Shown here in pieces: positions 22,517 to 24,784 of a stretch of DNA of 39,415 nucleotides (positions are counted from its first letter, which is position 1; each line of letters opens with the position of its first letter). Origin of the DNA: Minisyncoccota bacterium (GTDB taxonomy: Bacteria > Patescibacteriota > Minisyncoccia > Phycocordibacterales > UBA9973). Under the pieces are notes generated by a model, which did not search any database, was not told where the DNA came from, and worked only from the letters and a program-made list of their open reading frames with translations. Both the position numbers and the translations under genes were made by a program. The stretch lies in the NCBI GenBank assembly GCA_018062425.1, contig JAGOSH010000007.1, positions 1 through 39,415 of the forward strand. Direction: 5' to 3'.

Positions 22517-23341
22517 ATGTTTCAGCCTGATAAAGCTGCCATAGAGTCTAAAGAAAATAAAGCTGTAAAAGATTGTATACAACAATTGGTATTAGAACAT
22601 GAATATTTGGGTGACCCTAAGAACAAACAAGATTTGTATAAACAAATTCAATCCGATTGGCTGGCTTGGGTAGAAGAGAGAAAAATTACTGATGGATTAG
22701 ACCCAAATAATCAAGCTGATTACGTTCATGAATTGTTAGCAAGAGTTAGAAGATTTGTTGGTGGATTTGGATCAAGCCCTAAATTATACAAGATTCTTTC
22801 TAAGGATACTCATAGGCTTGATTGTTTAAGTGGTTCAATGGTCATCGGTTCAATACTTGAAAAATCAAATATCCAATTTTCCTATGTTAGTCCAGTAGGG
22901 CACATAGCGCTTCTGGTAAAGATAGATGGAAATAATTTTTATGTTGATGTGGGTTCAAATAAATTTTTTGAGATGAAAGAAGAATTTATTGATCGGACTG
23001 AATCGGGTAAAGATTTCGACACCGTTTTCTTTAAAGAAGGAATCGGTCGTGGATATAGTTTTTTTGCCGTCTATAAAAATCCAGAAGATGTATTAGGCAG
23101 TGTTTTTGGTAACATCGTTGTTTTAGATGAAGTATTGAAAGGAGACACAAGTAACGCTTCGTCAAATCCAAGACAACAAATAGCAGCTGCTGATTCCATA
23201 AAGAATGAGATTCAAAAAGTAGATTTCAAAAACCTACGTTCTTATTTAAACCAATTCCCAGATTTTAGAAAAACAAACAAGACACTTTGCGCAGCAGAGG
23301 TTGAAAGACTAAAGTCGATAGGATTTTATAACGAAGATTAG
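22517..23341 (+). CDS. Unknown protein with possible transglutaminase-like triad
   Basis: A 274-residue soluble protein. The centre has HRLDCLSGSMVIGSILEKSN (C103), SPVGHIALLVKI (H129) and NNFYVDVGSNK (D144): a Cys-His-Asp order and spacing like transglutaminase-type cysteine folds, including SirB1-like proteins. The rest is alpha-helical and charged. The identity as an active protease or transglutaminase is inference; a catalytically dead or binding role is possible. It starts three bases after glyS and its stop overlaps the lysA stop by four bases on the other strand. Composition is AT-rich. Confidence 0.75.
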   Translation: MFQPDKAAIESKENKAVKDCIQQLVLEHEYLGDPKNKQDLYKQIQSDWLAWVEERKITDGLDPNNQADYVHELLARVRRFVGGFGSSPKLYKILSKDTHRLDCLSGSMVIGSILEKSNIQFSYVSPVGHIALLVKIDGNNFYVDVGSNKFFEMKEEFIDRTESGKDFDTVFFKEGIGRGYSFFAVYKNPEDVLGSVFGNIVVLDEVLKGDTSNASSNPRQQIAAADSIKNEIQKVDFKNLRSYLNQFPDFRKTNKTLCAAEVERLKSIGFYNED

Positions 23342-24600: not shown

Positions 24601-24630
24601 AAAATAAAAAAACATCCGGTGTGGATGCTT
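24601..24630 (-). terminator. Attenuator terminator upstream of lysA
   Basis: On the minus strand AAGCATCC-ACACC-GGATGTTT forms an eight-pair stem (one G-U) with the GGATG end followed by T7-A-T4. It lies 28 bases before lysA. It competes with an antiterminator: AAAGCATC (24631-24624) pairs with GATGCTTT (24680-24673) in the leader ORF. Confidence 0.75.
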
Positions 24631-24664
24631 TGCCTAGTAACTAATTACGTAAAGTAAATCAAGA

Positions 24665-24733
24665 CTAAGACAAAAGCATCGCGCCACGCTTGGCGTCCTT
24701 CTTTGTCTTCTTTGCCTTGATAACTATAAACAT
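24665..24733 (-). CDS. Lysine-rich leader peptide of lysA
   Basis: A 22-codon ORF on the minus strand from ATG 24733 to TAG, encoding a peptide with six lysines, all AAG, grouped in KAKKTKKDAKR (positions 6-16). It ends GAMLLS. A promoter lies seven bases before the ATG, and a terminator hairpin follows before lysA. Inside the ORF AAGACAAA (24709-24702) pairs with TTTGTCTT (24674-24667), enclosing CGCCA/TGGCG; this hairpin competes with an antiterminator that uses GATGCTTT (24680-24673). If ribosomes stall at the lysine codons, the first hairpin opens, the antiterminator forms and lysA is transcribed; if they do not, the terminator forms. Standard attenuation logic; function inferred. Confidence 0.8.
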   Translation of the reverse strand: MFIVIKAKKTKKDAKRGAMLLS

Positions 24734-24740
24734 GTGTACA

Positions 24741-24748
24741 AGTATACA
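24741..24748 (-). promoter_or_regulatory. -10 promoter of the lysA leader
   Basis: On the minus strand TG is followed directly by TATACT, then seven bases and the leader ATG at 24733. It matches the leaderless-type spacing, so translation of the leader peptide could begin at once after initiation. Confidence 0.6.
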
Positions 24749-24784
24749 GTGTCTTCATTCAAAGTCAAACCACGTCGAATCTTG

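Follow-up and report, generated by a model that had tools for sequence, protein, structure and literature searches.

The analysed stretch (the window) comprises 39,415 nucleotides from a Minisyncoccota bacterium, a tiny, host-dependent member of the Patescibacteria. On its minus strand lies lysA, the gene for the final step of lysine synthesis, preceded by a promoter, a short lysine-rich open reading frame (ORF) and an intrinsic terminator (Table 1). The score against TIGR01048, above the cutoff, confirms the gene name given in an earlier sequence-only reading of this DNA, and the nearest solved relatives of the protein are diaminopimelate decarboxylases. The 3' end of lysA overlaps a convergent gene (22517-23341) by 4 nt (23338-23341). 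The assembly also encodes, at L002 (G000:C9:18297-19391), a LysA-like decarboxylase that is a distant paralogue (22% identity), and matches like it are present in many genomes of the genus.

Table 1. Features of the lysA region in the window
Feature	Coordinates	Strand	Basis
Promoter: -35 TTGACT (24768-24763), 16-nt spacer, -10 TATACT (24746-24741)	24741..24768	-	Consensus scan
Leader peptide ORF, MFIVIKAKKTKKDAKRGAMLLS, probably leaderless	24665..24733	-	Translation
Sensing codons GCA AAG AAG ACA AAG AAG (AKKTKK), segment 1	24698..24715	-	Comparison with L063, folding
Segment 2, partner of segment 1 (about 24720-24698) or of segment 3	24661..24680	-	Folding; TTTTGTCTT kept in L063
Segment 3, 3' arm of the antiterminator and 5' arm of the terminator, core AAAGCATC (24631-24624)	24624..24640	-	Folding; compensatory changes relative to L063
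Intrinsic terminator: 9-bp stem AAAGCATCC/GGATGTTTT, loop ACACC, tail T7-A-T4	24601..24631	-	Consensus scan, folding
lysA, diaminopimelate decarboxylase, 411 aa	23338..24573	-	TIGR01048, 330.5 bits (cutoff 297.9)

The leader ORF, its promoter and its RNA stems

The leader ORF consists of 22 codons and a TAG stop, and all six of its lysine codons are AAG. Five of them fall within codons 6-12, a repetition of codons for the amino acid that the downstream enzyme produces; the sixth (K15) lies beyond the predicted switch point, so that five of the six lysines count. Genome-wide, 30% of lysine codons are AAG. Its exclusive use in the leader is explicable by pairing with CTT in segment 2 and need not mirror tRNA supply; the 75%-complete assembly contains one tRNA-Lys gene (UUU).

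The promoter matches the consensus at 10 of 12 positions, and its -10 box is separated from the leader ATG (24733) by 7 nt. Across 427 ATG-start ORFs of the same assembly (G000), TATAAT-like boxes peak 6-10 nt 5' of the ATG, with 48 at 6 nt against a background of about 4-5, and few Shine-Dalgarno motifs are present. Leaderless transcription thus seems to be widespread in this Patescibacterium, and the gap in the window falls within the genome-wide peak, so a leaderless leader peptide would be ordinary for this organism.

Three helices are predicted in the leader RNA, which is about 130 nt long and half coding. Segment 1 pairs with segment 2 (1:2; AAGACAAA, 24709-24702, with TTTGTCTT, 24674-24667), segment 2 pairs alternatively with segment 3 (2:3; GATGCTTT, 24680-24673, with the segment 3 core), and segment 3 also forms the terminator stem with segment 4 (3:4; 24631-24609), which sits between the leader ORF and lysA. 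The sequence-only reading had listed the 22-codon minus-strand ORF with six AAG lysines, the promoter, the terminator and its T7-A-T4 tail, a hairpin within the lysine codons and both antiterminator arms, and each of these was recovered at the position it gave. The two 8-bp helices that it proposed share only 2 nt; the full 1:2 and 2:3 helices predicted here (GATGCTTT-T-GTCT-T-AGT...) are mutually exclusive across a longer stretch than that. The leader fold has a z-score of -3.44, and 1 of 200 shuffled sequences was equally stable.

A second leader in a distant relative

The closest LysA elsewhere, and the sole close one found, is 69-70% identical and is encoded at locus L063 (JAGOUR010000001.1, Candidatus Paceibacterota). 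Judged from their translations, the genes neighbouring lysA there encode the end of SecA, MazG-like, transposase-like and lytic-enzyme-like proteins, and DnaE. These neighbours differ from those in the window, but the layout of the putative attenuator is the same. A promoter (TAGACA-17-TACATT, with an extended TG; TGATACATT) lies 8 nt 5' of the ATG of a leader ORF (2843-2914) that encodes MNNSALFAKKTKKPLSGVFCLCR and probably also has a leaderless start; downstream of the ORF come a hairpin that resembles a terminator, with a T-rich tail, and then lysA. Its codons are ATG AAC AAT AGT GCA TTA TTT GCA AAG AAA ACA AAG AAG CCC CTT TCT GGG GTG TTT TGT CTT TGC AGG TGA, with four lysines within codons 9-13. 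The AKKTKK core is identical in the two leaders, and 17 of its 18 coding nucleotides are the same, the one change (AAG to AAA) being synonymous. Outside this core the leader peptide is not conserved between the two.

The L063 leader (fold z-score -5.87) can form the same three helices. Its 1:2 helix joins GCAAAG/CTTTGC with ACAAAG/TTTTGT and CCCC/GGGG, its 2:3 helix (GGGGTGTTTTGT/ACAAAACACCCC) has 12 bp, all Watson-Crick, and its 3:4 helix is AAAACACCC/GGGTG(C)TTTT. When the 2:3 helices of the two leaders were aligned on the common TTTTGTCTT, the 8-bp core showed double compensatory changes at two pairs (A-U to G-C and C-G to U-A) and no broken pairs. This is the pattern that a kept helix predicts, seen in two sequences and not a statistical covariation test. 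The sequence-only reading had proposed looking for conserved lysine codons and stems in relatives, and both are present in L063, the one close relative found.

Searches for further copies covered roughly 1,300 Patescibacteria genomes, in partly overlapping sets drawn from the genus (80), order (397), class (384) and phylum (380) and from relatives of the L063 genome (197). They returned no third close LysA, and no LysA other than that of L063 exceeded 43% identity. At about 30 Patescibacteria loci whose lysA is more distant (identity up to 43%), inspection gave no convincing lysine-rich leader with a terminator; the candidates there (e.g. at L009) were low-complexity and unstructured and were rejected. 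When the leader DNA was compared with 60 relatives, the matches were of chance length only, and no LysA relatives were found in viral contigs. We dismissed 108 matches to the DNA encoding AKKTKK as chance; among the matches checked, the segment 2 motif occurs downstream only in the window and L063 copies. Two genomes of another Patescibacteria genus (L081, about 1390-1425, and L085) have a hairpin (GAGGCAAGAGGGTTTTGCCTTCTT or near it) and a T-rich run before lysA, directly 3' of a TAAAAT box, and this element is possibly a different transcription switch.

Predicted switching with ribosome position

We modelled the effect of a translating ribosome by placing at each codon a footprint that reaches 12 nt in the 5' direction and 15 nt in the 3' direction from the first base of the codon in the P site. 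For the window leader, the antiterminator is predicted to dominate while codons 8-13 are in the A site (probability 0.60-0.88 over this range and 0.63-0.88 at codons 8-12). From codon 14 onward the terminator prevails (0.87-0.97). The L063 leader behaves similarly, with the antiterminator at 0.89-0.98 through codon 13 and the terminator at 0.87 at codons 14-18. Thus, the predicted switch point in both leaders lies directly past the last KK of AKKTKK. When all RNA 5' of the ribosome was blocked, the terminator rose from 0.12 at the lysine codons to 0.97 at the stop codon for the window leader; the corresponding values for L063 were 0.00 and 0.87. Blocking the footprint only gave a weak terminator at codons 21-24 of L063, through pairing around the ribosome, and this disappeared when the upstream RNA was made unavailable. 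In the model, formation of the antiterminator excludes the terminator and is favoured by a ribosome on the sensing codons, and this holds for both species.

As a control, the stretch between the lysine codons and the terminator was shuffled 400 times per leader with dinucleotides preserved; an equal change in terminator probability arose in 0 of 400 shuffles for the window and 1 of 400 for L063. The rarity of the switch in shuffles bears on the idea that the leader is constitutive, with the terminator fixing a low level of lysA and the lysine-rich ORF incidental in an A-rich stretch. Lysine is indeed frequent in the proteome (8.5% of codons), but AKKTKK and the three-way pairing, with its compensatory changes, have been kept across 30% protein divergence, and we regard a constitutive leader as very improbable. 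We also scanned the whole 528,954-bp assembly, using mechanical gene calls, for short ORFs that contain an amino-acid cluster and precede a terminator. The lysA leader ranked first of 95 ORF/terminator combinations; other candidates (ORFs on C6 and C10) had only short amino-acid clusters and were set aside.

These results argue that lysA is controlled by ribosome-mediated transcription attenuation in response to charged tRNA-Lys, a reading that we consider highly probable from the sequences and folding models of two examples. Transcription would start at the leader AUG or about 2 nt before it, with a ribosome trailing RNA polymerase along the leader. When Lys-tRNA is plentiful, the ribosome would clear KKTKK, reach the stop codon and cover segment 2, allowing the 3:4 terminator to form and transcription to end before lysA. 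When Lys-tRNA is scarce, the ribosome would stall at the lysine codons and cover segment 1, so that the 2:3 antiterminator would form in place of the terminator and lysA would be made. If the leader is not translated, 1:2 would form first and the terminator after it. In both leaders, folding of the nascent RNA yields 1:2 at a point where segment 3 is not yet transcribed, and in L063 1:2 remains the best fold even once segment 3 is present. The free full-length L063 RNA favours the antiterminator; basal termination in that leader therefore relies on 1:2 folding first as the RNA is being transcribed.

Because any stall before about codon 13 gives antitermination in the model, lysine specificity rests on codon content. 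Of the 12 codons from 2 to 13, five encode lysine in the window leader and four in L063. Lysine alone is clearly enriched in both of these pre-switch stretches, and no other amino acid recurs at positions conserved between the two.

Alternatively, the AKKTKK peptide, or its A-rich and poly-basic coding, could itself arrest the ribosome, with the same stems relaying a signal that could be free lysine, a polyamine or another molecule. Arrest-peptide leaders such as TnaC and SpeFL are known elsewhere, and the alanine and threonine of AKKTKK are conserved along with its lysines. Against this, the conserved core doubles as RNA segment 1, so base pairing could explain part of its conservation, the peptide around it is not conserved, and both leaders are predicted to switch directly after the final KK codons. 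We consider nascent-peptide arrest unlikely, though less so than a constitutive leader.

Relation to known lysine control and physiological meaning

Lysine genes are controlled by the lysine riboswitch, T-boxes or protein regulators. A ligand- or tRNA-binding RNA of the first two kinds could stand here instead of a translated leader, since RNA control of such genes is usually exerted by one of them. An actinobacterial survey placed lysine under riboswitches (PMC1262725). Yet the leader is short and half coding, no Rfam match in the window exceeded its threshold, and the lysine riboswitch and T-box were absent even among the weak matches, which makes this the least credible of the alternatives. 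The best weak match was Phe_leader, at 19.9 bits (cutoff 55) too low to be accepted; that family is itself an attenuator. The lysine riboswitch (L-box, RF00168) likewise controls lysine genes, often through premature termination, but it senses lysine directly through an aptamer of about 180 nt, and no such aptamer was found here. Among 238 genomes from the class, RF00168 exceeded its cutoff in none, and the controls were detected. The attenuator reading that had been made from the DNA alone is thus supported by the L063 comparison and the footprint folding, with lysA as the predicted target and no lysine riboswitch detected.

The proposed mechanism is classical ribosome-mediated attenuation and so of a known kind. 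The trp, his, thr, leu, ilv and phe leaders likewise encode a short peptide in which the regulated amino acid is abundant and have mutually exclusive 1:2, 2:3 and 3:4 stems with an intrinsic terminator before a biosynthetic gene. The system in the window differs in its predicted lysine specificity, its occurrence in Patescibacteria and its control of a single gene. Leaderless attenuators are also already known: a report on Sinorhizobium meliloti describes a trpL leader (rnTrpL) whose transcript begins at the AUG of the leader ORF, as the window transcript probably does, although with tryptophan codons and in an alphaproteobacterium (PMC10117765). The same source describes SEP5, a candidate leader peptide with six threonine and three lysine codons before an aspartate dehydrogenase gene. 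Like the leader described here, SEP5 places lysine codons in a small ORF 5' of an aspartate-family gene, but threonine codons predominate in it, and the passage that describes it gives no attenuator structure. Within the open-access literature searched, SEP5 is the nearest hint of a lysine-codon attenuator. Our search of that literature, outside which most subscription papers fall, returned no lysine-codon attenuator. Both the lysine specificity and the occurrence in Patescibacteria appear to be undescribed there.

The genes dapA (PF00701) and dapF (PF01678) were not detected in the genomes of the window and L063, and control genomes were positive. The window assembly is 75% complete, so single absences are weak there, yet the same two genes are missing in the L063 genome. 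Since they were not found, LysA may use meso-diaminopimelate (meso-DAP) obtained elsewhere, and the enzyme guarded by the switch seems to stand alone. We hypothesize that this is the first lysine-codon peptide attenuator and forms part of a gene-plus-switch module of Patescibacteria that are reduced, host-dependent and without the other steps of the DAP pathway, in which LysA would be induced to convert scavenged meso-DAP to lysine only when tRNA-Lys is uncharged; we see this wider proposal as evenly balanced between right and wrong.

To our knowledge, gene control in Patescibacteria is nearly unstudied. A leader-peptide attenuator keyed to lysine would fill a gap among the amino acids sensed by leader peptides. 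In these bacteria the system is a likely case of regulation coupled to the ribosome by way of a leaderless leader, and it suggests nutritional sensing centred on a scavenged component of the cell wall.
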